64,000 nt of DNA, from positions 833,272 to 897,271 of the forward strand of contig KE159810.1 of the NCBI GenBank assembly GCA_000403495.2, in the 5' to 3' direction. This DNA is from Lachnospiraceae bacterium 10-1. Lineage in GTDB: Bacteria > Bacillota > Clostridia > Lachnospirales > Lachnospiraceae. Positions 3,223 through 35,638 of this stretch are shown here, piece after piece; within the stretch, counting starts at the first letter, position 1; the number at the start of each line of letters is the position of its first letter. The notes under the pieces were generated by a model. The model did not search any database. It saw only the letters and a program-made list of their open reading frames with translations, and was not told the DNA's origin. Made by a program: the position numbers and the translations under genes.

Positions 3223-3224
3223 AT

Positions 3225-3587
3225 TTATCTGCCTCCTGTATATTTCAGATAAATTTCAAGGTGCTCATGCATCCCCATAGGATCATCATACATTTTCACT
3301 TCGTAAATCTCTCCATCAATTATCATTCTGCTGTTTTCAGGTGTTATCTTTTCATCCGGTTTTCCTTCCACCTTATACTGAAGCTCAACATAATCACACA
3401 AGAAAATATGGGTGGATTCCTGTATTTTAGCATTAAAAGTTGTATGCTTCGAATCTCCATCAAGTAAATCCAGCCACCCTTTAAGAGAAGTAACTGCATC
3501 CACATAACTTTTTTCAGGTTCCCCTATCTTATTTTTGCTGACCTTCGCAGTCTGAATTACAGCTGATTTATTTCCGCCGATACCCAT
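3225..3587 (-). CDS. head closure / head-tail joining protein
   Basis: A 120-residue protein beginning MGIGGNKSAVIQTAKVSKNK. It carries a short beta-barrel type pattern (LKGWLDLLDGDSK, FLCDYVELQYKVE, RMIIDGEIYEVKMYDDP) typical of head-closure proteins that bind the connector. It sits between the DNA-packaging connector and the gp10-like gene. Function is inferred mainly from gene order and size. Confidence 0.65.
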   Translation of the reverse strand: MGIGGNKSAVIQTAKVSKNKIGEPEKSYVDAVTSLKGWLDLLDGDSKHTTFNAKIQESTHIFLCDYVELQYKVEGKPDEKITPENSRMIIDGEIYEVKMYDDPMGMHEHLEIYLKYTGGR

Positions 3588-3590
3588 TAA

Positions 3591-4118
3591 TCAAAACCTC
3601 GGTTTTATATATGGCTTCAAAAATCCAAGCAGGGAAACCGGATACCCCATCACCTGATTATTTGAATCCTGATCATAGTAAGTTACTGTATGCCTTGAAA
3701 GAGTTTCAGATTTAATTCCTACTTTATGGCGGTTGCCTTTTTCCCATATCATCAGGTCAATAACGCCTTTCTGTACATCCGGCGGATAAATAATCTTTGT
3801 TGCCATATTATAGGGATGATCATATAAATCATGATCAAGGACAATGGCATTGCTTTTAATTTCAACAATGCCATACAATCCATCATTTACCTGTGACTGT
3901 GAAATCTGGACGGTGTCCCCGACCTTAAAATAAGGCGAACTTCCCATTAACATACCGTCCTGTGAAGCTGCTTCAATCCGCATTGTACGGTTCTGGAAAT
4001 TATTATTGGTGTATGATCTGATCAGGTTTTCAACAGCCTGCAGTTTCGAAACCAGAGCATCCTTATTCATTTTTTTAAACTCATCCATAGAAAGCAGATC
4101 ATCAACTTTTACTATCAT
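3591..4118 (-). CDS. head-tail connector / DNA packaging protein (gp6-like)
   Basis: A 175-residue protein. The N-terminal helices (VKVDDLLSMDEFKKMNKDAL, VENLIRSYTNNNFQ) match the style of gp6-like head-tail connectors, here with a beta-rich middle insertion (KVGDTVQISQSQVNDGLYGI) and a C-terminal helix (GVIDLMIWEKGNRH). It follows the capsid region and precedes the head-closure gene, as in HK97-type phages. Confidence 0.65.
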   Translation of the reverse strand: MIVKVDDLLSMDEFKKMNKDALVSKLQAVENLIRSYTNNNFQNRTMRIEAASQDGMLMGSSPYFKVGDTVQISQSQVNDGLYGIVEIKSNAIVLDHDLYDHPYNMATKIIYPPDVQKGVIDLMIWEKGNRHKVGIKSETLSRHTVTYYDQDSNNQVMGYPVSLLGFLKPYIKPRF

Positions 4119-4135
4119 CAGGTCACCGCCTTTCT

Positions 4136-4453
4136 TTACTGTTCGATTACCTCATATCCTTCATGTTCCTTAAACCAGGCTGCCATTCTGTCAGAGGTGA
4201 TTTTTGCCTCGCCATTTGCAAACTGTACGCCGCCTGCGCCGATTCCACAGAATTTAGGATTATTAGTTACCTTTACCGTATACTTTTTAGGCTGTTCTGC
4301 TTTTTTTCTTTCCTCTTCGTCCCATGCTTTCTGAACTTTTGCAACAGCTTCAGCAACTAATTTATTAGCTGCATCCTCATTAAGTCCATCCTTTTCTGCC
4401 TTTTTCATAGCAGATTCTTTTGCTTTAGAAATCTTTTCCTCCAATGTAGCCAT
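4136..4453 (-). CDS. capsid-associated phage protein, conserved hypothetical
   Basis: A 105-residue protein with a Lys/Glu/Ala-rich N-terminal helix (about residues 1-55) and a C-terminal segment with NPKFCGIGAGGVQFANG and RMAAWFKEHEGYEV. This C-terminal pattern is familiar from small proteins encoded just after the capsid gene in clostridial phages. Its biochemical role is unknown; a capsid decoration or completion role is plausible from position only. Confidence 0.6.
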   Translation of the reverse strand: MATLEEKISKAKESAMKKAEKDGLNEDAANKLVAEAVAKVQKAWDEEERKKAEQPKKYTVKVTNNPKFCGIGAGGVQFANGEAKITSDRMAAWFKEHEGYEVIEQ

Positions 4454-4511
4454 ATTTTATATCTGTCCTTTCTGTTATTATTAAAAGGGGCGGTATTTCT
4501 TCCACCCCAAT

Positions 4512-5525
4512 TTATGCTGAAATCTTTACATTTCTAAGCACGCCTGCGTGCTGGGTATTTTTAAGCACCGTTGCAGCAATCATTTCCACTTCTGCCTCCT
4601 TTACGGTGCCCGGCTTGCTGAAATCAGGAAGATACTGGTCAATCACACTGCTGCCGGAAAGGCTGATTCCATGAAAACCGTCATTTACATCAAATCTAAC
4701 AGCGTAAATATCTGTCAATCCGGTTGTTTCTTTTTCTCCAATTGTTCTTGTAATTCCCTTTTTCACTACCGCATTTGCTACAGCCTTATTTGACTCCACT
4801 GTATAATGATTCTTTAAATCCATAAAGCGTATGCCATCCATAGATACAACTTTTTTGCCAAAAGCCTCCTCTGACTCTGTCTTATAGCCAAGAGTACGGG
4901 CAACTGTCTGGATTTTTGCAATCATATCCGTGTTCATCATCAAAGCGTCTGCATCTGTTTCTTTAATTAAAAGTGTCAGTGCTTCATAGAATTCGTCCGC
5001 GTTGGCCTTTGTCTTCACAATGTCAGACAAATCAATGACTTTTCCGGCATTAAATTCTGTGGAGTTGCCTGCCAGCATGGAGTCCAGCCCTTCAAACTGT
5101 GGATGTTCCCCGGATGCAGTCGTTACCGCATCCCCATTAATAAGGGTATAATGAAACAAAGAAACCACTGACTTAATATGTTCCTCAATCTGCCATGCAA
5201 GATTATCCCAGTGGCCGGCCACTTTATTTAATACTCTGTCCATCTGAACAGAACCGCCCATAATTGTAAGTGCTGCTTCGCATTCCTGCTTGGTTGCCGC
5301 ACTTGCAGTGTAGGATGCATTCAGCTTTCTAAATTCGGCTGTAGCAGGCAGAACTTTTCTTAAATATTTATATTTCATTGTAGAACCGCCGCCACTTGCA
5401 CTGACGCAATCATCAAAGGGAATCGACTGCAGAACTGTCGATTCTCTAAGGAAAATATCAACAATCTTTTCAAATACTTTGTCTGCCATGCCTTTTTTAA
5501 TTTCTTCCAATGTCATAACTGCCAT
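4512..5525 (-). CDS. major capsid protein
   Basis: A 337-residue protein beginning MAVMTLEEIKKGMADKVFEK, of the length and position of HK97-fold major capsid proteins. Supporting segments are the coat-like YKYLRKVLPATAEFRKLNAS and a C-terminal FHGISLSGSSVIDQYLPDF. It lies directly downstream of the scaffold gene. No protease or delta-domain is obvious, fitting phages that use a separate scaffold. Confidence 0.8.
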   Translation of the reverse strand: MAVMTLEEIKKGMADKVFEKIVDIFLRESTVLQSIPFDDCVSASGGGSTMKYKYLRKVLPATAEFRKLNASYTASAATKQECEAALTIMGGSVQMDRVLNKVAGHWDNLAWQIEEHIKSVVSLFHYTLINGDAVTTASGEHPQFEGLDSMLAGNSTEFNAGKVIDLSDIVKTKANADEFYEALTLLIKETDADALMMNTDMIAKIQTVARTLGYKTESEEAFGKKVVSMDGIRFMDLKNHYTVESNKAVANAVVKKGITRTIGEKETTGLTDIYAVRFDVNDGFHGISLSGSSVIDQYLPDFSKPGTVKEAEVEMIAATVLKNTQHAGVLRNVKISA

Positions 5526-5548
5526 AATAATTCACCTTTTACCTTTCT

Positions 5549-6139
5549 TTATTCATTGTTTTCATACTTCATTTTCAGGGCTTCTCCTAATGTTTTGGGC
5601 TCATTTATATCAGCGGCAGGATCACCTGTTTCAAGTTTGTGTTCCTGAACCTGTTTCTGTGCAGGGGTTTCAAAATTGCCGGGGAACTGTGTTTTCAGAC
5701 CAGCAATAAGGTCATCCTGCCCTTTCAGCTTCCCATCATCACCTATCTGCAGGTTCCGGTCTCCGGTACCTGCTTTAAAAATCAGATAATCAATGTCAGA
5801 AGCCTTTGCCCCTGCATCCAGCAGGGCAACCTTTAAAGCACTTTCAACTTTCAGCTTTTCATTTTCTGCTGACAAAGTAGTAATTTTGGTTTCATATTCT
5901 GTAATTTTGTCCTGCAGCCCTTTATCATTTGCTGTGTCTTTTTTTAAGTTTTTGATCAGCTCCCGTGCCTCTGTCAGCTCCTTATTTGCACCTTCATGAT
6001 CTGATTTCAATTTGGAATACCTTACGTCAAGATTCTCTTCACTTGCTGTAAAAATCTTATTTTCCTTCATGCTGTTCATGATCTTTGTGATCTGCTCTTC
6101 TGAAAGCCCCATAGCTTTCAAAATCTCCTGTAACGTCAT
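5549..6139 (-). CDS. phage scaffolding protein (GP20 family)
   Basis: A 196-residue, strongly coiled-coil protein (about residues 40-110, KLKSDHEGANKELTEARELI and onward) followed by LKVALLDAGAKASDIDYLI and FKAGTGDRNLQIGDDGKLKG, a recognisable pattern of GP20-type scaffolds. It guides capsid assembly and leaves before maturation. It immediately precedes the capsid gene. The region upstream (6140-6230) holds three TACGTCA-like motifs and no gene. Confidence 0.85.
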   Translation of the reverse strand: MTLQEILKAMGLSEEQITKIMNSMKENKIFTASEENLDVRYSKLKSDHEGANKELTEARELIKNLKKDTANDKGLQDKITEYETKITTLSAENEKLKVESALKVALLDAGAKASDIDYLIFKAGTGDRNLQIGDDGKLKGQDDLIAGLKTQFPGNFETPAQKQVQEHKLETGDPAADINEPKTLGEALKMKYENNE

Positions 6140-6231
6140 TTCTCTTTACCTCACCTTTCATACGATTTTGTACGTGTTACGTCACGATTTACTTGGCAGG
6201 TGTTTTACGTCACCCCTGACGAATGGTATAT

Positions 6232-6262
6232 AAAAAAGACAGCCTCTTTGACTGTCTTTTTT
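6232..6262 (-). terminator. intrinsic terminator after the MuF/small-ORF cassette
   Basis: A perfect 11-bp stem (AAAAAAGACAG / CTGTCTTTTTT) with a 9-nt loop ends in a T run on the minus strand. It separates the MuF head protein and its two tiny downstream ORFs from the scaffold and capsid genes. Confidence 0.8.
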
Positions 6263-6283
6263 AACAAAATAAGTATTCCTTTT

Positions 6284-6487
6284 TTACTCCTGCATTTCAA
6301 AAAGCCATGCATTTTCCTTTGTTCGGGGGATTTCATAATGCATATCCTTTGGCGCATATGCTTTAGGAAAAATCTTATCAGAATGCTCCCGAATTTCATC
6401 ATCCACTGGCATTCCCTTAAAAGCGTCTCTGTTTTTGTCAAAATCTTCATACGATTTCAAACTTAAAAAAAGTTCTTTCTGTGTCAC
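6284..6487 (-). CDS. small unknown protein downstream of MuF toxin-like gene (immunity candidate)
   Basis: A 67-residue ORF starting with GTG (MTQKELFLSLKSYEDFDKNR), preceded by AGAGGGGACATTAAA as ribosome binding site. The product is charged, with acidic patches (MPVDDEIREH), and has no membrane segment. It is the second of two tiny ORFs between the MuF-metallopeptidase gene and a strong terminator. No family is recognised. Genes in this place behind MuF toxins are often immunity genes; that is inference here. Confidence 0.55.
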   Translation of the reverse strand: MTQKELFLSLKSYEDFDKNRDAFKGMPVDDEIREHSDKIFPKAYAPKDMHYEIPRTKENAWLFEMQE

Positions 6488-6533
6488 TTTAATGTCCCCT
6501 CTACCAATGCAAAAATAATTTCAATTAGTCCTA

Positions 6534-6698
6534 TCAGTTTAATGTAATCAGGCCATTTTCGTCTGGCTCGGGCTCTCCAAATACTCTTATAAACTCTTCA
6601 ACAGCCCAGTCAGGCGCATCATTTTTTAAACACCATTTTTCAGACTGCTCATCAATATAGGCATAACCCTCTTCAATAATTCTTGGCTCATCTATCAT
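6534..6698 (-). CDS. tiny acidic protein abutting MuF toxin-like gene (immunity candidate)
   Basis: A 54-residue ORF (MIDEPRIIEEGYAYIDEQSE to the end ITLN). Its ATG directly follows the TAA of the MuF gene with no gap, so it is translationally coupled. The product is strongly acidic (many Asp and Glu, few Lys/Arg), a common property of immunity proteins for basic or metalloprotease toxins, although this is only suggestive. No family is recognised. Confidence 0.55.
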   Translation of the reverse strand: MIDEPRIIEEGYAYIDEQSEKWCLKNDAPDWAVEEFIRVFGEPEPDENGLITLN

Positions 6699-8312
6699 TT
6701 ATTTTATCTCCTCCAATGCTTTTTCTAACTTTTTCCCAAAGATTGTAGCAAACTCTCTCGGATTTTCTTCACCAAAATATTCTGCAAAACATTCTGCAAA
6801 TAATTCAGATTCGCTCTTAGTACCATACTTCGATACTGCATCCTTTAAACCTATATATGTACGCATAGTATATTCAGGATGTATAAGTTTATATTCGTCT
6901 AAGCTCTCTTTAATTATAAAATGCTCAAAATCTTTTTGCAACTCTCCCATTGAATGTGACACATAATGCCCCCATTCATGAATAAATGTGTGTATCGGAT
7001 TCTTTCCGCTGTGCCATCCGCTTTCAGTGGATGTAGCGCTTATCTTGGAAGCATAATCCAAAGAAGAAAACAATCCTGCATTCAATTTGATTCCGTCAAC
7101 TACCCCATTAATATAATAACTGAATTGTCCAAGCGTTCCTGAGCTTAACGCAGAAGGTGCTACATTCTTAATTTCAGGTATTTTATGAACAATTTTTTCT
7201 GTAAAAGATATATATTTTTCTCTAAATTTAGAATGCCATTCAGCTATTTGAATGGCAAGTTGTTCATCCATTGGATATTTCCTTGAATCACTAATTTTAA
7301 TTCCACAATCGGTAAAATGATTGAACGCTTCCTTCTTTGATGAAAAACTTTGCCCTGCTTGACTATTTTGCCAATCACTAAAAATCTTTTGTGCCTCCTG
7401 TTTAAATTCTCCGAATGTTTCTGCATGAACTTTGATAAGTTCATCTTTATCACCGTCCCATTTTGTATAATATTCCTCTTGGGATAAAGCACTTCTCGCA
7501 CGTGACAGCAGGCAGCACCGGCAATTGCAGTCTTCGGACGGATCACCAAAACCACCCGGATACATTGCTTTTTTTCCTGCCACTTCAAATGGTTCGTCTG
7601 TCTCTCTTACCTGTCCATTTAATGTTACATGATTAGGTCTTGTCAGGCTGTCAAGGGTGGAATCCCACTGTTTCACCATATCGGCACCCTTTTCTATGGC
7701 CCTCTGCTGGCAGTGAAGTGTTGATTCCTGCTGTACCCTGTGTCCTTCCGTTCTTGCAATGCCAACTGCACGATTGTACGCTCTGTCAAAGGGACTGTTC
7801 ATGCCTCTTGCTATTTTTTCAGCAACTTCATTCCACGAAGAACCATTTGCTATCCCTCGCGCAAGTTCAATTCTAATGCTTTTCTTTAACAGGTCAATAT
7901 CTTCACCCATGCGCCGGTATAGTCCCTGGGAAATCTTGGAATCTACCTGAACTGCCTGCAAGGCCTGCTCCTGATTCATGGGGAACATTAAAGGTATCCC
8001 CTGCCCCTGCAAGTCATATAATGTCCCCCAAAAGCCATCCTCATAGCATTCTGCCAGATAATCAGCTACTGTTACAAATGATTCACTTTCCAAGGTATTT
8101 AATACACTTTCCAGCTGCTTATTTAATGCCTCCTGATACTGCTTTTGCCAGATGATAGACTGCAGGTTTTCCATGTCCCTGCGTTTTGACAGGTCTATGA
8201 TTTTATTTACACAATCGCACTGGGCCTTTCCATATGCCAGTTTTAAGTCCTTAATCACTTTCTCTTCTCTATCGGCACAATGTTTCTGAACTTCAATCTG
8301 TCTTTTATTCAC
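6699..8312 (-). CDS. MuF/SPP1 gp7-like head protein with C-terminal HEWGH zinc metallopeptidase domain
   Basis: A protein of about 537 residues. Residues about 1-280 are the phage head morphogenesis domain, with the signature SLTRPNHVTLNGQV and then DPSEDCNCRCCLL. After a linker, the C-terminal region carries IHTFIHEWGHYVSHSM, an HExxH zinc-binding motif near residue 445, and a downstream ESELFAECFAEYF that can give the third Glu ligand. Ordinary minor head proteins lack such a domain; fusion of MuF to toxin domains is known in temperate phages. The GTG at 8312 follows GAGGAGG and is preferred over an in-frame ATG at 8327. The stop abuts the next ATG. Confidence 0.8.
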   Translation of the reverse strand: MNKRQIEVQKHCADREEKVIKDLKLAYGKAQCDCVNKIIDLSKRRDMENLQSIIWQKQYQEALNKQLESVLNTLESESFVTVADYLAECYEDGFWGTLYDLQGQGIPLMFPMNQEQALQAVQVDSKISQGLYRRMGEDIDLLKKSIRIELARGIANGSSWNEVAEKIARGMNSPFDRAYNRAVGIARTEGHRVQQESTLHCQQRAIEKGADMVKQWDSTLDSLTRPNHVTLNGQVRETDEPFEVAGKKAMYPGGFGDPSEDCNCRCCLLSRARSALSQEEYYTKWDGDKDELIKVHAETFGEFKQEAQKIFSDWQNSQAGQSFSSKKEAFNHFTDCGIKISDSRKYPMDEQLAIQIAEWHSKFREKYISFTEKIVHKIPEIKNVAPSALSSGTLGQFSYYINGVVDGIKLNAGLFSSLDYASKISATSTESGWHSGKNPIHTFIHEWGHYVSHSMGELQKDFEHFIIKESLDEYKLIHPEYTMRTYIGLKDAVSKYGTKSESELFAECFAEYFGEENPREFATIFGKKLEKALEEIK

Positions 8313-9783
8313 CTGCCGCCTCCTCATCTGGAGAAAGCTGATTCAAAGCAGATTTAACATCCTGAATTTGTTTTTCCGGATTCTGTTCTTTCTGCTCTTC
8401 AATTCTGCTTTTCACTTCATCATAATCAAGATCAAGGATTTCACATAATGCTTTCAAAATTGTATCATCATCAAATGCACTTGCAGCAGATAATAGTGTA
8501 TTTGTCTCCTGATTTTTCCTTTGCGCATTGAGCAGTTCAATTTCTGCATTATCCTTTGCATTTGTTATCACTTCGCGTTCAAGGACAATCTGGACATCTT
8601 TCATCTTATAATTTGTCTGCAGTTCTCTATTGATTTCGTCAAGAACCACCTTTAACATCTGCCGGAGGAACTTTTTCAGTCTGATTTCCAATTTGTCCGA
8701 TTTAAGATCAAGCAGGGCATATCTACTTTTAATAACAATATTTGTGATATTGCCATCTCCCACCTGTGTGGAATTAAATCCCATTCCAAACCGGTAAATA
8801 TTTTTCTCATCTAATTCTAATTTTACCTTTCTTGCTTCATACGGGATATTAATTGTTCTGATTTCAACATCACCATCTGAATTAACGCCGACATGCCTTT
8901 TAACTTTTATATTCTGAATCATTTCATCCAGATCTGCGCCTTGAAATCCTTTGACTACATACAGGCCTTCTCCGATATCCTGCAAATTATTGGATAAACC
9001 GCAGGCCATCAGGTCATAATCATCAATCAGTGCCTTAATTGGGTTTAATCCTGATGCCTGTTTCCGGTTATTGTCCAGCCGGAAGAAGGGAATAAAGCCA
9101 TATCCTCCATTCCCTTCATAATACAGATTTTCGTCTCCTGTTTTTTTGTATGTAATGTGCGGTCTTGGATTGATTTTCTCCGAATTATCCAGTTCGACTT
9201 TTCCGGTCCCGTTCTGTACGTAATATGTTGTCGCATCTTTATCCCAAACCTGAATCCTTGTAATAACTTTATTGCCTTTTTCAATTCTGTCTGTATAATA
9301 GTAAATTACATAATCACATCCATCATCTGTGTCTTTTCCCCTGACTTCCACTACTCCCATTGAATCTGCTGTCATAAATCTGGTTTTTCCGGATTCGGAC
9401 TTGTATGCATACATATTTTCAAAACCTTTGGCAATACATCCGGTCAAACATTCCTGCAGCTCTGTTTTAAATTCGTCTCCAAAATAATCATCAAGAGCAG
9501 CCTGTAGTTTTTCATCATCAGAACGCATAAAAGGCTTATCACTGGAAAGCATGTACTGTACCTGCTGGTCAACTAGCTCCGTGAAGAAAGGATGGGAAAT
9601 TTTTATGTTGCTGCGTATCTTATCTTCCTGTAGTTTTCCGTCACCATCAACATAATACATTTTATAGTCTTTTATATCATGCTTCCCTTCATAATACCGA
9701 AGGCCCACTTTGGCCTTATTCTTCTTTTCTGATGTTTTATCGTTTTCAATAAAATGCTGGATCTCTTTTACATTTAATGCCAT
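8305..9783 (-). CDS. phage portal protein (SPP1 gp6 type)
   Basis: A 492-residue protein with the SPP1-type portal pattern: KVGLRYYEGKHDIKDYK near the N-terminus, PFFTELVDQQVQYMLS, FIPFFRLDNNRKQASGLNPI and LIDDYDLMACGLSNNLQDI in the middle. The dodecameric portal is the DNA gate of the capsid. It lies between the large terminase and the MuF gene as expected; its 3' end overlaps the MuF start by 8 bases. Confidence 0.9.
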   Translation of the reverse strand: MALNVKEIQHFIENDKTSEKKNKAKVGLRYYEGKHDIKDYKMYYVDGDGKLQEDKIRSNIKISHPFFTELVDQQVQYMLSSDKPFMRSDDEKLQAALDDYFGDEFKTELQECLTGCIAKGFENMYAYKSESGKTRFMTADSMGVVEVRGKDTDDGCDYVIYYYTDRIEKGNKVITRIQVWDKDATTYYVQNGTGKVELDNSEKINPRPHITYKKTGDENLYYEGNGGYGFIPFFRLDNNRKQASGLNPIKALIDDYDLMACGLSNNLQDIGEGLYVVKGFQGADLDEMIQNIKVKRHVGVNSDGDVEIRTINIPYEARKVKLELDEKNIYRFGMGFNSTQVGDGNITNIVIKSRYALLDLKSDKLEIRLKKFLRQMLKVVLDEINRELQTNYKMKDVQIVLEREVITNAKDNAEIELLNAQRKNQETNTLLSAASAFDDDTILKALCEILDLDYDEVKSRIEEQKEQNPEKQIQDVKSALNQLSPDEEAAGE

Positions 9784-9801
9784 TGCTACACCTGCCTTTT
9801 A

Positions 9802-11193
9802 TTAATACAGCCATGTGTTAGGCTCATACAACGCAAGGGAAAGAGAATCTGCAGTATCAGGTGAACCTAATCCGCGTTTTTTCATATCATCCTTTGATTC
9901 AAGCTGTATTTTTCCTTTGGAAGTCATGTGATACTTTCTTACACTTAGCTGTTTAATCATTTCTGCGTCGTCGGGAAGTTCAAGTTCCACATTGTCCTTC
10001 CCCTGCATCTTGTTTGAGAAATTTTTTTCAAGCAATTCTTTTATATACCCCCACAACTGGGCGCCAAGGTTAAAATAATACTCATCCGTGGCAGATTCGC
10101 CATTGTTAACCGGAACTATTGTGTAGGGAAGTTTTTCTTCCCTTACCACCTCTTTCAGTCGGTCAGTAACACCGCCGCCTACGCCGGAATCATCTACTTT
10201 AATAATGCAGTTCTTGATATGGTAAAAGCTCTGCATATACTCCTTGCAGCACATGATCACATTCCCGGCTGTTTCCATTGTGCTTTTCTTTGTATATTTT
10301 CTGAATTCAAATACTTTCGTGCTGATTCTCGGCGTTATTACTGTTTTATCATCACCAAACCTTGCCACATCCACACCGACATGAAGTGTCTTAGCTGTAT
10401 TTATATCAGACTGTTTTAGTTTGTTCTGCGCTGAACATGCAAGTTCGACCGTTTCCAGGGATATGAAGGCATCAAGTGCGCCTTTGGGGAACTGCCCGTC
10501 AATTCTAACCCTGCATACATCAGAATCTTTTCCGTATTTGGATTCCAGCATTGCAATATTGTCTTTTGATGTACGCTTTGAATCCCTGCTGGAAACCGTA
10601 TGTGTTTTAAACTTATCCCTGTCTTTATTGAATGCATCAAAAAACACACCTTCTATGCGGTTGGGGTTCCCCATCAGTAGCAGCTTGTTATCGTCTCCTG
10701 TCAGAGTACCAAGTATGGCCTCCATAATAGGATCACTAACTCCGGATGCTTCATCTACCACAATCAGCATATGGTCTTCATGAAATCCCTGCATGTTCTC
10801 CGGTTTAGTTGCTGTTTTCGCTGTAGCAAACCACCGTTCCGAAGCTCCTTCCATATAGACTTTTGTCTTTGTCCATGTAAGAAGATTCTTTACCTTGGAA
10901 GAGTCAAGCCACTTTGCGATCTCAGCCCAAAGCACGTCATAAAGCTGCTGCATGGTGGGAGCTGTGGCAACTACCTTTGAATAGGGCCGGCACGTGATAA
11001 ACCATATAATAAGTCCGGCTTCCAGTGCTGTTTTCCCAACACCCTGACCGGACTTAACTGCAACCTTGGGATGCTTAGCAAGGTCTGCGGCTACTTCATC
11101 CTGCCAGTTGTCACATTTCATATCAAGCATATCTTCAAGGAATGCTGACGGATTATCATAATAAACTTCTAAGACATTAATCAGCTCTTCCAT
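9802..11193 (-). CDS. terL: terminase large subunit
   Basis: A protein of about 463 residues with an ATPase Walker A-like KSGQGVGKTALEA near residue 50, Walker B MLIVVDEASGV near residue 145, and a C-terminal nuclease region beginning LHVGVDVARFGDDKTVI, with Asp residues typical of the RNase H-fold nuclease. It drives DNA packaging and cutting. The ATG at 11193 is preferred over a GTG at 11205 that overlaps the AAGGAG site. It overlaps the small subunit gene slightly. Confidence 0.9.
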   Translation of the reverse strand: MEELINVLEVYYDNPSAFLEDMLDMKCDNWQDEVAADLAKHPKVAVKSGQGVGKTALEAGLIIWFITCRPYSKVVATAPTMQQLYDVLWAEIAKWLDSSKVKNLLTWTKTKVYMEGASERWFATAKTATKPENMQGFHEDHMLIVVDEASGVSDPIMEAILGTLTGDDNKLLLMGNPNRIEGVFFDAFNKDRDKFKTHTVSSRDSKRTSKDNIAMLESKYGKDSDVCRVRIDGQFPKGALDAFISLETVELACSAQNKLKQSDINTAKTLHVGVDVARFGDDKTVITPRISTKVFEFRKYTKKSTMETAGNVIMCCKEYMQSFYHIKNCIIKVDDSGVGGGVTDRLKEVVREEKLPYTIVPVNNGESATDEYYFNLGAQLWGYIKELLEKNFSNKMQGKDNVELELPDDAEMIKQLSVRKYHMTSKGKIQLESKDDMKKRGLGSPDTADSLSLALYEPNTWLY

Positions 11194-12073
11194 CCGTTTT
11201 TTCACTCCTTCGTTTTGCTATCTCAATAATAGCTGCTTTCCAATCCTGCACCTGCTCCTTTACTTCATCCTTCTGGATTACCTTTGATTTTAAAACTTCA
11301 ATTCTGGCTTTCTGCTCTGCTGTGGCCAAATCCATGTGATCTGAAATCCACTGCAAGGCTTTCATTCTATCAGCAAGTTTTATACTCGCTCCATCCTTCC
11401 CCTGCTTAATCTCTGAAATCAATGTTCCATCAATTTCAATACTTTCCCTGAAACGGACTACATTAATCTCCTTTTTAATTTCAATTTTTTTGCCGGTTTT
11501 TTCATCCTTTACTACAATGGGACCGAATGGCCCCATAACTGGAACTGTCTCACGTCCAAATTCTACGTAATCCGTAATATCGGCAAAGGCTATATCCATG
11601 TATTTCTGAAATATGTCTTCTTCCGTTAACATTTCTCTGTTAAGACGGTTTTGTTTCAGACGTTGGATTTCGTTTTTTATTTCAATACTTTTCAATAATT
11701 TTGATGCATTTCCACAGGCTGTAATGTAGTCTACTCCATATGCTTTTTGATATGCTTTAACAGCATTGAAACACTTAATATATAAACAGCAAAAAAGCCT
11801 TTGCTTATCAGTTAAATCAGGATTTTCTATTACCTGTTCAACTTCATTTGCAATGGCTTTTTCTTTATCTTTTTTTATATGCTTATGTTTAGTAACGTTA
11901 CTATTCCCATTTGGTAACGTTACTTTATCCCATCTATCCTGATTTTTCCATTTCCTGACCTGCTCTTCCGACACCTGCAGTTCTTCCGCAATGTCCTTAA
12001 GCAGGCGGCTTTTACCGCTTTCCAGCCAAAGCTGCTTTGCCTTGTCCCGGCTGGGACTTCTTGGTCTTGCCAT
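11177..12073 (-). CDS. terS: terminase small subunit
   Basis: A protein of about 298 residues. The N-terminal MARPRSPSRDKAKQLWLESG leads into a helix-turn-helix (LLKDIAEELQVSEEQVRKWK), as in clostridial small terminases. The middle has LTDKQRLFCCLYIKCFNAVK and GNASKLLKSIEIKNEI, the Terminase_2-like pattern. It recognises packaging sites in phage DNA. The ATG at 12073 follows an AGAGGTGG sequence. It overlaps the large subunit gene. Confidence 0.85.
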   Translation of the reverse strand: MARPRSPSRDKAKQLWLESGKSRLLKDIAEELQVSEEQVRKWKNQDRWDKVTLPNGNSNVTKHKHIKKDKEKAIANEVEQVIENPDLTDKQRLFCCLYIKCFNAVKAYQKAYGVDYITACGNASKLLKSIEIKNEIQRLKQNRLNREMLTEEDIFQKYMDIAFADITDYVEFGRETVPVMGPFGPIVVKDEKTGKKIEIKKEINVVRFRESIEIDGTLISEIKQGKDGASIKLADRMKALQWISDHMDLATAEQKARIEVLKSKVIQKDEVKEQVQDWKAAIIEIAKRRSEKTDGRAD

Positions 12074-12127
12074 TACCACCACCTCTTTTATATTTATTAA
12101 ATTTATACATATATTTTTGATTATAAA

Positions 12128-23926: not shown

Positions 23927-24112
23927 TCATACCTGCTCAACTTTTTGTTTTCTTTGCTGTTCTGTGAACTTTCTAAATTCTTCGCGTAAAATCAGCTCTG
24001 AAACTCTGGATATTATCGCTTGCTGCTCTTCTGGTGTTTTGTTTATGTAGTAGTCGTCGTGGACAATAATATGACATCCCTCTGGACTATAGTAATCTCT
24101 GACTATTGCCAT
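23927..24112 (-). CDS. small early phage protein, unknown
   Basis: A 61-residue protein (MAIVRDYYSPEGCHIIVHDD) ending in a Glu/Lys/Gln-rich helix (EFRKFTEQQRKQKVEQV). Similar short proteins with a YYSPEGCxIxVHDDYY pattern are common near the replication or early genes of clostridial phages. It is the most upstream of the early small genes before the 470-base non-coding stretch. Confidence 0.6.
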   Translation of the reverse strand: MAIVRDYYSPEGCHIIVHDDYYINKTPEEQQAIISRVSELILREEFRKFTEQQRKQKVEQV

Positions 24113-24588
24113 GACATCACCTCAAATCTTTTAATCAATCTTATGTTTTACTGGTTGTACTTCTTTACCTTGCACGCTTGTCATGATAAAATATATTTAC
24201 CCAAATCGGGCAGGAAAGGAGCTGGTTTTATTGACCAAACTTTTGACTTTGCCCTGCTCTCTTTTATGAAGGAAGTTGCGTTGTTGGTACCTCCGCAATA
24301 TTTGGTATAGGGGTTAAATTTAAATATGTTCAAAGCTAAGCTAATCATGGATAATCACAGCATTATCATTTTTCGCACCCCTATATCAGATAAACTTTGT
24401 AATCCACCAGCTAATGGGCCTTTTTATTGTTGCTGAACTAAAACTGCATAAGTGGTGGAGCGCTCGAAGAAACATTGGTGTCGTACAATGTGGTGAAAAC
24501 CTGCAAAGCGCATAGAGTTAAAAAATTTAGGTAAAAAACTGTTAGTGACGACACACTAGCAGTTTTTTGTTGTCTAAAAGTCTGCTTC
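24113..24588. other. non-coding stretch with inverted repeats (candidate structured RNA)
   Basis: No convincing gene is visible. Complementary arms TATAGGGGT (24306-24314) and ACCCCTATA (24377-24385), then TCCACCA (24403-24409) and TGGTGGA (24453-24459), lead to a strong terminator hairpin at 24533-24568. This series fits a plus-strand structured RNA. A TTG-start 12-codon ORF near 24230 with an AAAGGAG site is the only peptide candidate. Confidence 0.4.
24533..24568. terminator. bidirectional intrinsic terminator
   Basis: A 15-bp stem with one G-U pair (AAAAAACTGTTAGTG / CACTAGCAGTTTTTT) and a 6-nt loop. It would end the minus-strand gene at 24589-24747 and any plus-strand RNA from the gap. 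Confidence 0.7.
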
Positions 24589-24900: not shown

Positions 24901-25317
24901 ATGAATATATCTGACAGAATAAAAGAAATAAGAAAATCGCTCAAATTAAGCCAAGAAGAGTTCGGCCAAATATTAGGAGTTAGTAGGGATGTAATAGGAA
25001 ATATAGAATATGATAGACTTAAAAGACCAGATCAAAAAGAACCTATCTATAAACTTATATGTGAAAAATTTAATGTAGATGAAACTTGGCTTCGCGCTGG
25101 TGAGGGTGAAATGTTTCAAGAAATTTTACCTGAAGATGAAATAGCCTCTGCTGTATCGAATGTCCTTGAAGATATCAAATGTGAAAATTCCATTTACACA
25201 CTTGTCAAAGAATTACTGTTAAAATACGAGCAATTAGACACTAGCTCCAAAAAAGTCATTAATAAATATGTTGATGATGTAATATTAGGGTATACACAAA
25301 AAAAGGAAGAGCCTTGA
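24901..25317 (+). CDS. cI-like XRE-family phage repressor
   Basis: A 138-residue protein with an N-terminal helix-turn-helix (LKLSQEEFGQILGVSRDVIG, near residue 17-36) and a short C-terminal helical domain. It lacks a LexA-type peptidase domain, so induction cannot occur by RecA-driven self-cleavage of this protein as seen. It follows GAGAGGAGG at correct spacing and is read rightward from the promoter at 24851. It presumably holds lysogeny through the three operator-like sites. Confidence 0.8.
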   Translation: MNISDRIKEIRKSLKLSQEEFGQILGVSRDVIGNIEYDRLKRPDQKEPIYKLICEKFNVDETWLRAGEGEMFQEILPEDEIASAVSNVLEDIKCENSIYTLVKELLLKYEQLDTSSKKVINKYVDDVILGYTQKKEEP

Positions 25318-27043: not shown

Positions 27044-27949
27044 TTATGCGCATATAAACATTATAATAAAACACAGAAAATTAAACCAAAACAAATAAGG
27101 GTACTTATCTATCCATCTAAAAACAGCTATTTTTTTATCGGATTCCTCTTTTGTAGAAATCGGCATTCCAACCAGTTTTGACAGAATATATAAAAACATG
27201 AAAATAATATCAAACATTACAATTCCGACAAAAGATATCCCAAACCCTATTTGATACCATTCGGCTTGATGTATATTTGTCAAAACGTCGGAGAAAACCG
27301 AAACACCGCCAAAAAATACAATGACTATTGCAGTAAAAATTCCAAGTATTGATACAAATTGTGAATATACATTATTCACTTTTTTCTTTAATTTTTTTGA
27401 TAATTTATCTGCCTCCCTGAATCTGTTTTCAAACTCCGCAACTGTCTGAATTAATGAAATATCTTGTTTTTTAAAACTATCTGTACTTTCCTGTTTGAAC
27501 TGATCAATGATTTCATTAATTCTATCTAAATTCTTTTTATGATCTGTAATCCTTACTATCTCAAGCATTATATGATCATACAGCTCATCAACACCTTTTA
27601 TTGCTTTTTTGTACATTCCTTCATTTTTATGCATAATCTGTTTTAAGGATTCTATATTTGATGTGAGATTAATCAATTGTTGCTCATTCATATCCCAATG
27701 CGCATATATTTCAGCAGACACATTATAATATGAATACTCGTATCCACTTTCATATGCCTCTACCAAACAAAGTGCCATATCAGTATATTTTGCAATATCG
27801 ATACTTTTAAAATTATCATCCATCATGAATCGGATGAACTGATTAATTTCTCCTGAAATCTCTAATTCTTCATTCTTTTCATTAGTATTACAAATATCAT
27901 CAGTGTCCGGGCCTGTTGTATTAAATAATATATCTTTATCTTCTGCCAT
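27044..27949 (-). CDS. membrane protein partner of Panacea gene (toxin/effector candidate)
   Basis: A 301-residue protein: an acidic cytosolic N-terminus, a long helical/coiled-coil middle (about residues 70-195, including YKKAIKGVDELYDHIMLEIV), then three membrane segments (about 200-222, 234-262 and 284-301, including GIFTAIVIVFFGGVSVF). It follows the Panacea gene by 18 bases, so the two are an operon. A membrane-acting toxin fits the known range of Panacea partners, but no toxin family is recognised. The architecture is also that of membrane effectors in abortive infection. Confidence 0.65.
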   Translation of the reverse strand: MAEDKDILFNTTGPDTDDICNTNEKNEELEISGEINQFIRFMMDDNFKSIDIAKYTDMALCLVEAYESGYEYSYYNVSAEIYAHWDMNEQQLINLTSNIESLKQIMHKNEGMYKKAIKGVDELYDHIMLEIVRITDHKKNLDRINEIIDQFKQESTDSFKKQDISLIQTVAEFENRFREADKLSKKLKKKVNNVYSQFVSILGIFTAIVIVFFGGVSVFSDVLTNIHQAEWYQIGFGISFVGIVMFDIIFMFLYILSKLVGMPISTKEESDKKIAVFRWIDKYPYLFWFNFLCFIIMFICA

Positions 27950-27967: not shown

Positions 27968-28399
27968 TTATTTTGCACAGGCATATTCCCTTATATATTC
28001 AATGGGAATATCGACTTTTGTGCCATTATATACTTTACTCCAAGGGCTTCCAGGTCTATGACTTTTTTCTACCAACTCCCAAGGAGTAATACTCGTACAT
28101 GCATTAATTACTCGTTTAATTAACTTCTCTTCCTCTGCGGAAAACATGTTCGTTACGTTTTCGTACAAATTACATATTTTAGTAGGCCCATAACTACTAA
28201 ACCACTCATATACATTTGGTACTACTGGTCCATACTGCCACGCCTGAATATTTTCAGGAAAAGCTAATTCAGCAAATACCCTGATGAAATTTAACTGTAC
28301 ATAATATAATATTTTCTGTAATTGTAAATTTGTAATAGGTTTTCCGCATCTAGTACAATAATCTACAACATATTTTGCAATGTCCATTGAACTATTCAT
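27968..28399 (-). CDS. Panacea (DUF4065, GepA/SocA-like) domain protein, antitoxin candidate
   Basis: A 143-residue protein with the full domain pattern: DIAKYVVDYCTRCGKPITNL followed by QLQKILYYVQLNF, then FPENIQAWQYGPVVPNVYEW and a C-terminal PWSKVYNG. Panacea domains act as antitoxins for many unrelated toxins and as proteolytic adaptors (SocA). It is first in a two-gene operon with the membrane protein; antitoxin-first order is usual. Its strong minus-strand promoter lies beside an SOS-like box. An AGGTTGGAAG-type site precedes the ATG. Confidence 0.8.
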   Translation of the reverse strand: MNSSMDIAKYVVDYCTRCGKPITNLQLQKILYYVQLNFIRVFAELAFPENIQAWQYGPVVPNVYEWFSSYGPTKICNLYENVTNMFSAEEEKLIKRVINACTSITPWELVEKSHRPGSPWSKVYNGTKVDIPIEYIREYACAK

Positions 28400-28433: not shown

Positions 28434-28617
28434 AAGAACATCTCTATATTTATAGTATGTTCTTATCGTAAATAATTAACCTTATCTTGCCATTTATATG
28501 TTTCACTTTTATTATATCTGTTTTTTAGAATTTGTCAAATTTCGCGAACATTCGTTCTCTTCATATTATTTGATACACTAAAAATTTGTTGACAGGATTT
28601 CTAAACAACTTTAGTAT
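28434..28617. promoter_or_regulatory. divergent promoters with an SOS (LexA/DinR)-like box
   Basis: Minus strand: TTGACA (complement of 28533-28538), 16 nt, TATAAT (28511-28516) drives the Panacea operon. Plus strand: TTGACA (28589-28594), 17 nt, TAGTAT (28612-28617) drives the recombinase. CGAACATTCGTTCT (28545-28558) between them matches the GAAC-N4-GTTC form of the Gram-positive SOS box. The inverted repeat AAGAACAT / ATGTTCTT (28434-28441, 28457-28464) lies in the Panacea leader. Confidence 0.65.
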
Positions 28618-28670: not shown

Positions 28671-30248
28671 ATGCAGGACAACTACTGTGCCTATCTTCGC
28701 AAAAGCCGCGCGGATCGTGACGCTGAAATGAAGGGTGAAGAAGAAACTCTTGCCCGGCATAAGCGTATTTTAACAGAACTATCCAAAAAGATGGGAAAAC
28801 CTATTTCCAGATTCTATTCCGAGGTTGTATCTGGAGAAACAATCACCGCTCGTCCTGTCATGCAGGAACTTCTATCTGATGTGGAATCTGGCATGTGGAA
28901 GGGTGTTTATGTGGTAGAAGTAGAACGTCTTGCACGTGGCAACACCAAAGATCAGGGTATTGTTGCTGATGCCTTCAAATATTCTAACACTGTCATTATC
29001 ACTCCATCCAAAACCTATGATCCGAATAATGAATTTGACGAAGAATATTTTGAGTTTGGACTCTTTATGTCCAGACGCGAATATAAGACCATTAACCGGC
29101 GTCTGCAGCGTGGGCGTATCGCTTCTGTGAAAGAAGGAAACTATATTGGCGGTTCGGCTCCTTATGGCTATAGAAAGGTCAAACTGTCAAAAGGCTATTC
29201 CCTTGAGATTATTCCCGAACAGGCAGAAATCGTCAGGCAAATCTATAACTGGTACTGCCAAGGTGAACAGCAGCCAGACGGTACCTTCTGCCGACTTGGC
29301 ACGGATGCTATAGCAACTAAACTGGATTCTATGGGTATTAAACCTGTTGTTAATGATAAATGGTCTAGGGCGACCATCAGCGATATGTTAAAAAATCTTA
29401 CCTATACCGGCAAGGTATTCTTTGGACAGTATAAAGAAATTAAGACTTCCGTAAACGGAAAGGTTGTTAAAAAGAGAGTATATGATCCAAACCACCTGGT
29501 TGCACAGGGAAAGCATGAGGCAATCATTAGTGACGATCAATTTGAACTTGCTGCTAAAATGCGAACAGTAAATCAAAAAAATACTGTGCCCGCTGCCTCT
29601 GTGCTGCAAAACCCTCTTTCAGGTCTTGTATACTGCAAGAAGTGCGGCACCCTCATGACACGACTGGCTCCTAATTCCAGAAACAAATATTCAACCCTCA
29701 AATGCCCGAATCGGTATTGTGGCAATGTATCTTCTCCCCTTTTCTTAGTAGAGCGTCAAGTACTGCAATACCTGAAAGACTGGCTGCATGCTTATGAGGT
29801 TGACAATAAGGCAATGAACTTTTCCCCTATAAATGAGGAAATCAATCTGAAGCTTGATACCATAAAGAAACTACGGTCAGAAATTGCGCAACTTACCTCA
29901 CAACTTAACCGGGCATATGATCTCTTGGAGCAGGAAGTGTACACGATTGAAATATTTAAAGAAAGGCAGGCCAACCTTAAGAACTCTATTTTCTCCTTAG
30001 AAGAGCAATTAAACGCCCATGAAAGTGACTTAAATCACCTTCGGGAACTTCAAATTACGCAGGAACTTTTTGCACCTAAGGTCAGACATTTACTTGATAC
30101 TTACAAAACAAACAGCACCGAACTTAATAACTCCATCCTGAAAGAACTTATTGCCCGAATTGACTATGAAAAAGAGACTCGCAACACACGCGGAAAACTG
30201 GATAATTGTAATTTCTCCTTAAGCATATTCCCTCATATCTCTAATTAA
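28671..30248 (+). CDS. large serine recombinase (phage integrase)
   Basis: A 525-residue protein. The N-terminal resolvase domain has the catalytic serine motif YLRKSRADRD (Ser12). It continues with the recombinase domain (GGSAPYGYRKVKLSKGYSLE near residue 160 and FGQYKEIKTSVNGKV near 260), a zinc ribbon CKKCGTLMTR...CPNRYCG near residue 320-350, and a long coiled coil (390-450). It carries out site-specific integration and, with a partner factor, excision. AAGGAGG precedes the ATG. It lies next to the right prophage end. Confidence 0.93.
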   Translation: MQDNYCAYLRKSRADRDAEMKGEEETLARHKRILTELSKKMGKPISRFYSEVVSGETITARPVMQELLSDVESGMWKGVYVVEVERLARGNTKDQGIVADAFKYSNTVIITPSKTYDPNNEFDEEYFEFGLFMSRREYKTINRRLQRGRIASVKEGNYIGGSAPYGYRKVKLSKGYSLEIIPEQAEIVRQIYNWYCQGEQQPDGTFCRLGTDAIATKLDSMGIKPVVNDKWSRATISDMLKNLTYTGKVFFGQYKEIKTSVNGKVVKKRVYDPNHLVAQGKHEAIISDDQFELAAKMRTVNQKNTVPAASVLQNPLSGLVYCKKCGTLMTRLAPNSRNKYSTLKCPNRYCGNVSSPLFLVERQVLQYLKDWLHAYEVDNKAMNFSPINEEINLKLDTIKKLRSEIAQLTSQLNRAYDLLEQEVYTIEIFKERQANLKNSIFSLEEQLNAHESDLNHLRELQITQELFAPKVRHLLDTYKTNSTELNNSILKELIARIDYEKETRNTRGKLDNCNFSLSIFPHISN

Positions 30249-30290
30249 TATTACATATGACATAAACGTGCGTATACTTACGGCCCTCCA
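30249..30290. other. probable right prophage junction (attR region)
   Basis: Just after the recombinase stop the frame of a host GH18 gene opens at 30261 and becomes homologous-looking from about TATACTTACGG (30273-30283), which encodes the family YTYG segment. The crossover is probably in or near this stretch. The left end is outside the window, so the exact core cannot be read. Confidence 0.5.
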
Positions 30291-30701
30291 ATGGCTGTAG
30301 CACCCATCAACAAAGTACGGGAAGTTGTGGACTACGCCATTACCCGCATTGATCCTGCAAAAATTGACTTAGGCATACCAAACTATGGCTACGACTGGAC
30401 GCTTCCATATGTCCGCGGCAGCTCTGCTGCAGTTACCATCAGCAATTTGGAAGCAATTCAAATCGCCATTGCCCATGATGCGGAAATATTTTTTGACGAA
30501 ACCGCCATGTCTCCTTATTTTCAATATGAGCAAAGCGGGCAGCTTCATGAGGTTTGGTTTGAAGATGTACGAAGCTATCGGGAAAAGTTCTCTCTCCTTC
30601 CTGCCTACCTGCTACGGGGCATGGGGTATTGGCAGATCATGCGGTTTTTCCGTCCCAACTGGCTTCTTCTTCAGGATACCTTTCAAATAAGAAAACTATA
30701 G
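30261..30701 (+). pseudogene. spore GH18 glycosidase (SleL/YaaH-like), C-terminal part interrupted by prophage
   Basis: The open frame gives YTYGPPMAVAPINKVREVVD and GIPNYGYDWTLPYVRGSSAA, then IFFDETAMSPYFQYEQ and YLLRGMGYWQIMRFFRPNW: the C-terminal half of spore-type GH18 N-acetylglucosaminidases that cut cortex peptidoglycan in germination. The catalytic DxDxE region and LysM domains belong to the missing N-terminal part, which should lie beyond the left prophage end. The 3' end overlaps the convergent dipeptidase gene by 6 bases. As it stands it is broken, but precise excision could restore it. Confidence 0.8.
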
Positions 30702-33055: not shown

Positions 33056-35638
33056 CTAACAGGTAGCCCCGCCTTTCATATGTTTCTGAGCCGATATATT
33101 TTCCTGCTTTCTTTCCAGCAGGTCATCTGCAAGGAGCTGCTTTTGTACCTGTTCAAAACCGATTCTCTCTACCGTATCAGCAAAACGCTCCCCGGTAATG
33201 CCCTGTTCCCTGAATAAAAGAATCGCTTTTTCCACAATGGCAAGCACCTCTTCCTTATCCGTAAATACTTTATCAAGATATCTTCCTCTGGCAACCTTCT
33301 TTCCCCAGCGGCCGCCAATATAAATCCGGTAGCCATTCACATAATTTTCCAATGCACCAAAAGGGCACTTACCCATGCAGCGGCCGCAATGATTACACTC
33401 ATTCTCATCAATAACCAGCCTGCCTTCCTTAAGACCGGCAACTTTGATAGGACAGTTTTTCTCTACCTGGCATACTTTGCACCCCCGGCACTTTTCAGGA
33501 TCAAGCTGAGGTACACGCTGTCCGATAATCCCCAGGTCATTCAGATCAGGCTTTACACAATTGTTGGGACATCCGCCTACTGCTATCTTAAATTTATGAG
33601 GCAGCTTTACAGATGCATAACCATGGAAAAATCTCTCATGAATTTCTTCTGATAATTCAAAGGTATCAATCAATCCATACTGGCAGGTAGTTCCTTTACA
33701 GGATACCACCGGACGTACCTTAGAGCCTGTGCCGCCCATCTCTAAGCCTGCTTCTGACAGATACTCCCGAAGCGGTTCAATATTTTCAAAGGGAACTCCC
33801 TGTATTTCCATAGTCAGCCGGGAGGTCATAGTTACTTCACCGCTTCCAAACTGCTCTGCCGCCTGGGCAATTGCTTTTGCTTCTTCTGCTGTGATCTTTC
33901 CATTCCGTGTGATTACCCGTCCATTAAACTTATCCGGCGTCCTCTTATCCTTTAAAAAGCCAAGCGCCTTTACTCTGGTTTCCTCTTCCCTGGAAACCTG
34001 ACCGCCATCATTTTTTACCTTTACATCATTAAAGAAAGTGGCGCCTTCCAGCACAATGGTATTGGTATAGCCATAAAAGCGCAGGCGGTTCTGTAAAAAA
34101 TATCCTCTCTTTCCTTTTGCACATACGAGCAGCAGCTTTTCTTCCCTGCCAATTCCGGGCAGTTCTCCTTTTACACTGGCAAGATCAATATATTCCGCAC
34201 CGGGGATGGTGGGAACCGGCGCCACATCCAGTATCCTGAAGCCTTCCGCTTTCCCTTCCGCATACTCTGCCGGAGTCATGCTTACCATATCTCCATTTAA
34301 TTTATTCATAAGTACATACACTGCCTGCACCAAGGGATGAATTGCAGTAGAAAAAGGTGGTGCGTAAGCAAAATCCGCATTTTCAAAGTCTTCCAGCCTT
34401 GCTCCCATATTGATTCCCATTACTGCAATGTCTACCATCTTATCCACAGCCCCCGGTCCAAATACCTGTAAGCCAAGCAGCTTATGGCTTTCCTTATCTG
34501 CAATCAGCTTTGTTGCAAAGAACGCCGAATCCGGATAATAATGGGCTTTATCATCCGTAACTGCAAGCACTGTTTCCACCTGATAACCTGCATCGATAGC
34601 CTGTGCTTCGGTCAGTCCGGTACGCCCACAGTTAAGTCCCGGCAGCTTTACCACACCGGTTCCCAATACACCCGGATATTCCTTCTGCTCTCCGGCAAGA
34701 ATCTGTGCCAAAGTACGTCCTTCCAGATTGGCAGAAGATCCCATCGGGGACCACTGGGCCTTTCCGGTAATTCGGCTGACTACCTGTACACAATCGCCTG
34801 CCGCATAAACATCAGTAAGGCTGGTTTTCATAGTCCGGTCTACCAGAATCGTTCCCCGGTTCATTTCAATACCGCTATTTTCTAAAAATCCGGTGTTGGG
34901 GCGAATACCCGCTGCCATGATCACAAGTCCACAGCTTAGCACGCCTGCACTGGTTTTTATGGATGATACCTTTTTATCACCTGAAATCTCTTCCGCCTTT
35001 GTTCCCGTAATAACCTTAATTCCTTTTTTCAATAAATGTTTTTTGCCATAGGCCGCCATTTCAGGATCCAGTATGTTGGGAAGAATCTGGGGGGCAAAAT
35101 CGATCACTGTAACTGAAACACCCTTCTGCTGCAAATTTTCCGCCATTTCAAGACCAATAAATCCTGCGCCAACCACCACTGCTTTTTTTACATTTTCTTC
35201 TTCCACATAAGCTCTTACATTAACCGCGTCTTCTGGAGTGCGCATGGTGAATACCCCGCCCAGTTCCATTCCCTTTACTGGCAAAACTGCCGGAGAAGCT
35301 CCTGTTGCAATTACCAGCTTATCGTAATTATGTACTTCCTCTTCACCGGTTTTTACATCCTTTGCCCTGACAGATTTTGTCTGTGGATCAATGCTAACCA
35401 CCTCTTTTTCCGTGAGCACTTCCACCCCTGTCAGCGCCGCATATTTTGCCGGTGTATTTACAATCAATTCCTCCGGTTCCTGAATCATGCCACCTACATA
35501 ATAAGGAAGTCCGCAGCCCGCATAGGAAATATCTCTGCTTTTTGTAAGCAGAGTAACCTGCATATTTCTGTCCGCCCGTTTTAATTTTGCTGCGGTCTTT
35601 GTCCCGGCCGCCACACCTCCAACCACTAATACCTTCAT
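33056..35638 (-). CDS. CoA-disulfide reductase / rhodanese / sulfite reductase-ferredoxin fusion
   Basis: An 860-residue protein. Residues about 1-440 are an FAD-dependent CoA-disulfide reductase (KVLVVGGVAAGTKTAAKLKR, active Cys in YAGCGLPYY, and VVGAGFIGLEMAE). About 455-545 is a rhodanese domain with Cys in LLLVCAKGKRG. About 590-700 is a siroheme/4Fe-4S reductase domain (VSCKGTTCQYG, GGCPNNCVKP), and then two ferredoxin motifs (CRGCKVCQVEKNCP and CNHCGRCMGKCP). Such fusions move electrons from NAD(P)H to sulfur or sulfite. It overlaps the EAL gene stop by 4 bases (ATGA). Confidence 0.85.
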   Translation of the reverse strand: MKVLVVGGVAAGTKTAAKLKRADRNMQVTLLTKSRDISYAGCGLPYYVGGMIQEPEELIVNTPAKYAALTGVEVLTEKEVVSIDPQTKSVRAKDVKTGEEEVHNYDKLVIATGASPAVLPVKGMELGGVFTMRTPEDAVNVRAYVEEENVKKAVVVGAGFIGLEMAENLQQKGVSVTVIDFAPQILPNILDPEMAAYGKKHLLKKGIKVITGTKAEEISGDKKVSSIKTSAGVLSCGLVIMAAGIRPNTGFLENSGIEMNRGTILVDRTMKTSLTDVYAAGDCVQVVSRITGKAQWSPMGSSANLEGRTLAQILAGEQKEYPGVLGTGVVKLPGLNCGRTGLTEAQAIDAGYQVETVLAVTDDKAHYYPDSAFFATKLIADKESHKLLGLQVFGPGAVDKMVDIAVMGINMGARLEDFENADFAYAPPFSTAIHPLVQAVYVLMNKLNGDMVSMTPAEYAEGKAEGFRILDVAPVPTIPGAEYIDLASVKGELPGIGREEKLLLVCAKGKRGYFLQNRLRFYGYTNTIVLEGATFFNDVKVKNDGGQVSREEETRVKALGFLKDKRTPDKFNGRVITRNGKITAEEAKAIAQAAEQFGSGEVTMTSRLTMEIQGVPFENIEPLREYLSEAGLEMGGTGSKVRPVVSCKGTTCQYGLIDTFELSEEIHERFFHGYASVKLPHKFKIAVGGCPNNCVKPDLNDLGIIGQRVPQLDPEKCRGCKVCQVEKNCPIKVAGLKEGRLVIDENECNHCGRCMGKCPFGALENYVNGYRIYIGGRWGKKVARGRYLDKVFTDKEEVLAIVEKAILLFREQGITGERFADTVERIGFEQVQKQLLADDLLERKQENISAQKHMKGGATC

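Follow-up and report, generated by a model that had tools for sequence, protein, structure and literature searches.

A siphovirus-like prophage with a large serine recombinase splits a YaaH/SleL-like spore hydrolase gene at a site shared across Clostridia

The sporulation genes sigK, spsM, spoVFB, gerE and yabG carry elements that are excised in sporulation or according to growth phase (PMC5595907, PMC10747680). Excision of SPbeta rejoins spsM, a spore-envelope gene of Bacillus subtilis (PMC4191935). In both SPbeta and the skin element of C. difficile, the recombinase is constitutive while the directionality factor is under sporulation control (PMC5595907), and in C. difficile skin it is the directionality factor that controls the element (PMC5025042).

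Here we describe a locus of Lachnospiraceae bacterium 10-1 in which a prophage divides a YaaH/SleL-like gene. It resembles SPbeta in spsM in that a serine-recombinase prophage lies in a spore-envelope gene, a likeness of working principle only; the target gene and the host group differ, and our candidate directionality protein of about 55 residues was not identified as SprB. As with skin in sigK of B. subtilis and Clostridioides difficile, a serine recombinase element splits a sporulation gene, but the target there is a sigma factor, whereas here it is a cell-wall hydrolase and the element is a prophage with a full structural gene set. The gin element in gerE (B. cereus), yin in yabG (C. botulinum) and vfbin in spoVFB are likewise elements of varied size in sporulation genes, and are non-phage or prophage-like; unlike these, one recombinase clade and one site recur here across many genera, in elements of 1.35-50.7 kb. 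A literature search, mainly outside the subscription journals, did not turn up YaaH/SleL among the reported targets. Mechanisms of this class are known; what appears to be new is the target gene, together with the site-specific clade of recombinases and the candidate factor. A cortex/germination hydrolase would be one more of the few spore genes in which excisable elements lie, with full phages through mini-elements at one identical site and a named candidate directionality protein.

The window is the whole 64,000-nucleotide stretch that was analysed, C11:833272-897271 of a 4.57-Mb genome. The sequence-only reading had proposed a prophage with a serine recombinase in a SleL/YaaH-like target, which Pfam domains, phage genes and structure matches bear out, and the recombinase gene (28671-30248, plus) is indeed followed by the C-terminal half of a GH18 gene in the same orientation (30278-30701, plus). 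The N-terminal half, which that reading had suggested seeking beyond the left prophage end, was located by a GH18 search of the same genome at C11:822963-823678, past the left window edge and on the same strand of the same 1.08-Mb contig. The two parts are separated by 39.9 kb, the element measuring 39,870 bp, and the window contains its rightmost 30.3 kb. The N-part ORF encodes LysM and GH18 domains and enters phage DNA immediately past ...LLMTYEWGYTY; the prophage cuts the last ~140 codons off from the rest of the gene. On the other side, 30249-30272 is still phage DNA and the gene part starts from the att core TATAC (30273-30277). The features of the window are as follows.

1-30277, no strand: right three quarters of the prophage, from attL/attR positions and phage genes; the remainder, C11:823679-833271, lies outside the window
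1677-12082, minus: structural module (PHROGs matches)
1677-2432, minus: major tail (PHROGs)
4512-5525, minus: major head (PHROGs)
6699-8327, minus: minor head/maturation protease (PHROGs)
8305-9783, minus: portal (PHROGs)
9802-11205, minus: terminase large subunit (PHROGs)
11177-12082, minus: terminase small subunit (PHROGs)
23927-24112, minus: 61-aa member of the ~55-aa family, candidate recombination directionality factor, common to 14 of 15 complete elements
24901-25317, plus: HTH (Xre-type) phage repressor (PHROGs; Pfam HTH_3/HTH_19)
28589-28617, plus: sigmaA-like promoter TTGACA-N17-TAGTAT 5' of the recombinase, by consensus match only
28671-30248, plus: large serine recombinase, 525 aa (Pfam Resolvase, Recombinase, Zn_ribbon_recom; phrog_95 integrase)
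30253-30277, plus: phage half of attR, with arm ACATATGACATAAA, core TATAC at 30273-30277 and predicted crossover at AC 30276-30277
30278-30701, plus: C-terminal part of the LysM-GH18 (YaaH/SleL-like) gene, with its stop at 30701; the N-part is left of the window

The tape-measure, holin and endolysin genes (PHROGs) fall outside the window, to its left, and from its gene content the prophage looks complete and siphovirus-like. Just inside attL is a LytTR-type response regulator (Pfam Response_reg and LytTR; L007:3705-4433, C11:823705-824433, minus strand), a phage-borne host-type regulator at the left end of the prophage; the G034 element has a similar 244-aa ORF at the equivalent end (L047:12967-13701).

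The junctions read GGGTAC-AC-ATATGCT at attL and GCGTAT-AC-TTACGGC at attR. Joining the flanks in silico at the shared AC dinucleotide gives an uninterrupted, in-frame ORF of 379 aa, and precise removal would recover the reading frame. The phage ends, when joined, form an attP whose arms, ACATATGACATAAA / TTTATATCATATGT, make a near-perfect inverted repeat centred exactly on AC, which fixes the orientation because it is non-palindromic. This predicted attP, palindromic and sharing a short non-palindromic core with attB, has the geometry expected of a serine-integrase site. The element encodes its own site-specific recombinase, in which a Resolvase domain with the Ser nucleophile (the invariant Ser12 within YLRKSR in the alignment) is joined to a recombinase domain and a zinc ribbon, as in large serine recombinases. 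The exact attP predicted for this phage had no match in IMG/VR, where one contig (L197) carries an identical recombinase followed by the same C-half; INPHARED held no close relative of the recombinase (best 48%).

Two PDB structures match the rejoined protein over residues 3-378 and across the join: 4s3k (Spore germination protein YaaH, E 2e-77) and 4s3j (cortical-lytic enzyme). With LysM and GH18 domains and full-length YaaH/SleL similarity, the target gene is predicted to encode a spore cell-wall hydrolase of this family. SpoIVA is present in 74 of the 76 carriers of the orthologue, and the two co-occur in the family's other genera (Fisher p = 2.5e-6, for genomes that are not phylogenetically independent). 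Upstream, CATAnnnTA stands at -60 to -25 from the start codon in 29 of 36 orthologues (shuffle mean 0.9), with AC at sigmaK-like spacing in 15 of the 36 (shuffle mean 0.15); the box looks like the -10 element of a sigmaE/sigmaK mother-cell promoter. Family, SpoIVA co-occurrence and -10 box together link the split coding sequence to sporulation or germination. Eight SpoIVA-positive genomes of the genus are without the gene, which is therefore inessential to having a sporulation programme and dispensable in places. The interrupted genome itself has SpoIVA, an uninterrupted sigK-like gene scoring slightly below the family cut-off, and two additional GH18 genes, which could compensate for loss of the split hydrolase.

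The same split recurs widely. Among 194 relatives, the gene is divided at the same residues in G025, G030, G034, G090 and G128, and 397 family genomes yielded further splits in G226, G244, G268, G294, G361, G381 and G382. Each split genome has a recombinase of the same family, usually beside one half (on another contig in G244). A GTDB scan revealed the split in the closed genomes of Anaerocolumna sp. MB42-C2 and AGMB13025, and in isolates of Lacrimispora amygdalina, Anaerostipes hominis BG01, Clostridium sp. KNHs205 and E02, Eubacterium sp. 14-2 and Lactonifactor longoviformis (the G244 genome). When 27 interrupted genomes were tried, all 25 that could be resolved had the insertion at the same codons, between YEWGYTY and GPP, and rejoined in frame: after joining at TAYAC, a frame of 377-478 aa stayed open through the motif. 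The join script left two cases, G507, whose C-half is at a contig edge, and G516, whose C-side is divergent (TACAGTATTCC instead of GGCCCTCC). In the genus, 4 of the 29 genomes that carry the gene have it split; in the family sample, whose matches include some paralogues, the split is present in 9 of the 127 matching genomes.

The 15 complete elements, those with both halves on one contig, measure 1.35, 3.8, 4.5, 4.9, 8.1, 10.7, 12.4, 12.8, 17.7, 20.3, 39.9, 46.2, 47.4, 49.6 and 50.7 kb. In one of two layouts, the one found here, the recombinase reads into the C-half; in the other it lies antisense at the end of the N-half. The 1.35-kb element (G361, L079:7585-8935) contains only a recombinase cut to 314 aa, with neither zinc ribbon nor coiled coil, and a 74-aa HTH protein; both gene halves are open, suggesting either a locked remnant or an element mobilised in trans.

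A tree of 165 recombinases places all 48 that are inserted in the target gene in one 62-member group (SH-aLRT 99) and the 103 others outside it; none of 500 label shuffles was equally clustered. Fourteen members of the group are without a GH18 half. L217, L218, L220 and L223 stop at or near the att core, while L202, L205, L209 and L219 have an intact palindrome-like attP and then non-GH18 sequence, L139 being similar. L202, L205, L209 and L219 are, as read from these sequences, unintegrated forms, with a free attP in some viral contigs. Comparison shows a clade whose site, in many Clostridia, is the conserved DNA of the YEWGYTYGPP motif. Recombinases for which attB and attP are known and conserved also have value as tools. 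Faecal phage MT835739 and Dorea phage DO134P1 were considered as users of the site and rejected, having no such attP and recombinases outside the clade. In L087 (G118 C33), a related recombinase lies 0.5 kb past an intact YaaH-like copy (4473-5993 and 6478-7602). The genome under study (4.6 Mb) carries an unusually heavy load of 38 PF07508 recombinase matches, and a relative has up to 44.

When the ORFs of the 15 complete elements were clustered, only the recombinase and a protein of ~55 aa stood out as convincing families common to them; the 12.8-kb element does have its recombinase, though outside the recombinase cluster, and one further cluster consists of ORFs antisense to the recombinase. 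The ~55-aa family is absent only from the 1.35-kb element with the truncated recombinase, and an intact recombinase accompanies the ~55-aa gene in elements of 3.7 kb and upwards. Within the genus, the family occurs in 4 of 4 split-gene genomes vs 1 of 33 others (Fisher p = 8e-5), detection being partly by construction as three of the four sit in the model of the family and G025 does not; PF07508 recombinases occur in every genome of the genus. The family is also common near related recombinases with other sites, as expected of a directionality factor co-evolving with its recombinase. Searches of the ~55-aa protein against Pfam, PHROG and NCBIfam gave no match. It is our candidate for the directionality factor.

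The stretch GTACAA-N9-CATAnnAT, 5' of the ~55-aa gene (about 24130-24165 in the window, minus strand), occurs in 35 of 49 clade members vs 11 of 72 others. We do not claim it as a sporulation promoter of this gene, since its conservation resembles that of codons, and it probably encodes part of a short upstream peptide (VQPVxHKI); the search established no sporulation promoter for the ~55-aa gene. HicB-like (and some HicA-like) genes lie near the recombinase in L117, L118, L126, L149 and L044; the HicB cluster comprises 12 loci, 10 of them GH18-inserted, and is enriched beside recombinases in the target gene. The HicB-like ORF was discarded as a directionality factor, being part of HicAB-like pairs and found only in some elements.

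The most likely mechanism, and in our judgement a fairly probable one, is sporulation-linked excision of the element. The sequence shows that a temperate phage has inserted itself, by way of its large serine recombinase, at a dedicated attB within the YaaH/SleL-like gene. The recombinase, with the ~55-aa protein as directionality factor, would then excise the element by recombining attL with attR at the AC core, presumably in the mother cell during sporulation, when the hydrolase gene would be turned on from the sigmaE/K-type promoter suggested by the conserved -10 box. The sigmaA-like promoter of the recombinase fits the pattern of SPbeta and C. difficile skin, where sporulation control acts on the directionality factor. 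The in-frame junctions and purifying selection suggest that the rejoined 379-aa gene would yield a functional enzyme. The mother cell would die and the spore chromosome would retain the prophage, allowing lysogeny and sporulation to coexist as in SPbeta-spsM and skin-sigK, and excision may serve the lytic cycle too. This relation between lysogeny and sporulation is testable in cultured Anaerocolumna, Lacrimispora amygdalina, Anaerostipes hominis and Lactonifactor longoviformis. The sequence-only reading had suggested such a developmental switch, and our observations are consistent with it. We counted the in-frame junctions, the purifying selection on both halves, the -10 box, the free attP sites, the mini-elements retaining the recombinase and the SpoIVA co-occurrence for sporulation-linked excision, and against it the failure to establish a sporulation promoter for the ~55-aa gene, the two other GH18 genes, the eight SpoIVA-positive genomes without the target gene, and the G361 element, whose halves are open despite a truncated recombinase and no ~55-aa gene. 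A wider proposal, which we hold tentatively and rate as slightly short of probable, is that the recombinase and ~55-aa module has been kept as a developmental switch for one spore hydrolase and carried in many Clostridia by intact phages and by mini-elements down to 3.7 kb, the latter acting like a DNA-level intron removed at each sporulation.

The main rival is passive inactivation of the gene, in which the phage merely exploits conserved DNA in a dispensable spore gene as a convenient attB, lysogens live without the hydrolase, and insertions are recent and turn over by ordinary induction and loss. Many phages use conserved gene motifs as attB, the two other GH18 genes are in keeping with dispensability, and the free attP forms could reflect ordinary phage mobility. 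Within the genus, the median pN/pS of the N and C parts was 0.25/0.21 for split-split, 0.25/0.19 for intact-intact and 0.27/0.19 for split-intact pairs, so both halves are under purifying selection equal to that of uninterrupted relatives, and none of the 25 resolvable interrupted genes has decayed. Intact halves would also be expected from recent insertion, and the recombinase has moved recently between species in at least one case (L141/L143). Between Lacrimispora amygdalina and Hungatella SA7853, the divergence of gene and recombinase is matched (dS 0.59 for N, 0.82 for C and 0.68 for the recombinase) and omega is low (0.05, 0.02 and 0.06, respectively). An insertion roughly contemporary with the species split would account for this, the interrupted gene having stayed under selection for function; phages diverging in step could produce the same pattern. 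For the Anaerocolumna pair, whose phage modules are colinear, vertical inheritance was dropped as the recombinase (dS 1.0) is less diverged than the gene (dS 1.8-2.7), values above ~1 being near saturation. Small elements with no evident virion module persist with recombinase and ~55-aa gene intact, which also speaks against passive inactivation, and we regard it as unlikely, if still a serious contender.

Another alternative is active lysogeny, in which a subpopulation excises the element stochastically or under stress, independently of sporulation, and regains the hydrolase at any time. It would suit the sigmaA-like recombinase promoter, and yin in yabG excises by growth phase within one culture (PMC10747680). 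We consider it improbable, as restoration outside sporulation would have little effect on a target with a mother-cell-type -10 box. Many of the relatives are metagenome bins, but an assembly or binning artefact is refuted by the two halves on a single 1.08-Mb contig here and by the same structure in the closed Anaerocolumna sp. MB42-C2 and AGMB13025 genomes and other isolates, and the identical codon split in some 26 other genomes likewise rules out chance.

Two further observations concern other genes of the window. Near the recombinase, an ORF with a SocA/Panacea domain (27968-28399, minus) adjoins one for a putative membrane coiled-coil protein (27044-27949, minus), a possible toxin-antitoxin or defence pair. 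Beyond the prophage, an 860-aa ORF (33056-35638, minus strand) was judged by eye to resemble, in order, an FAD/CoA-disulfide-reductase-type oxidoreductase, a rhodanese-like part and a sulfite/nitrite-reductase-like iron-sulfur part.
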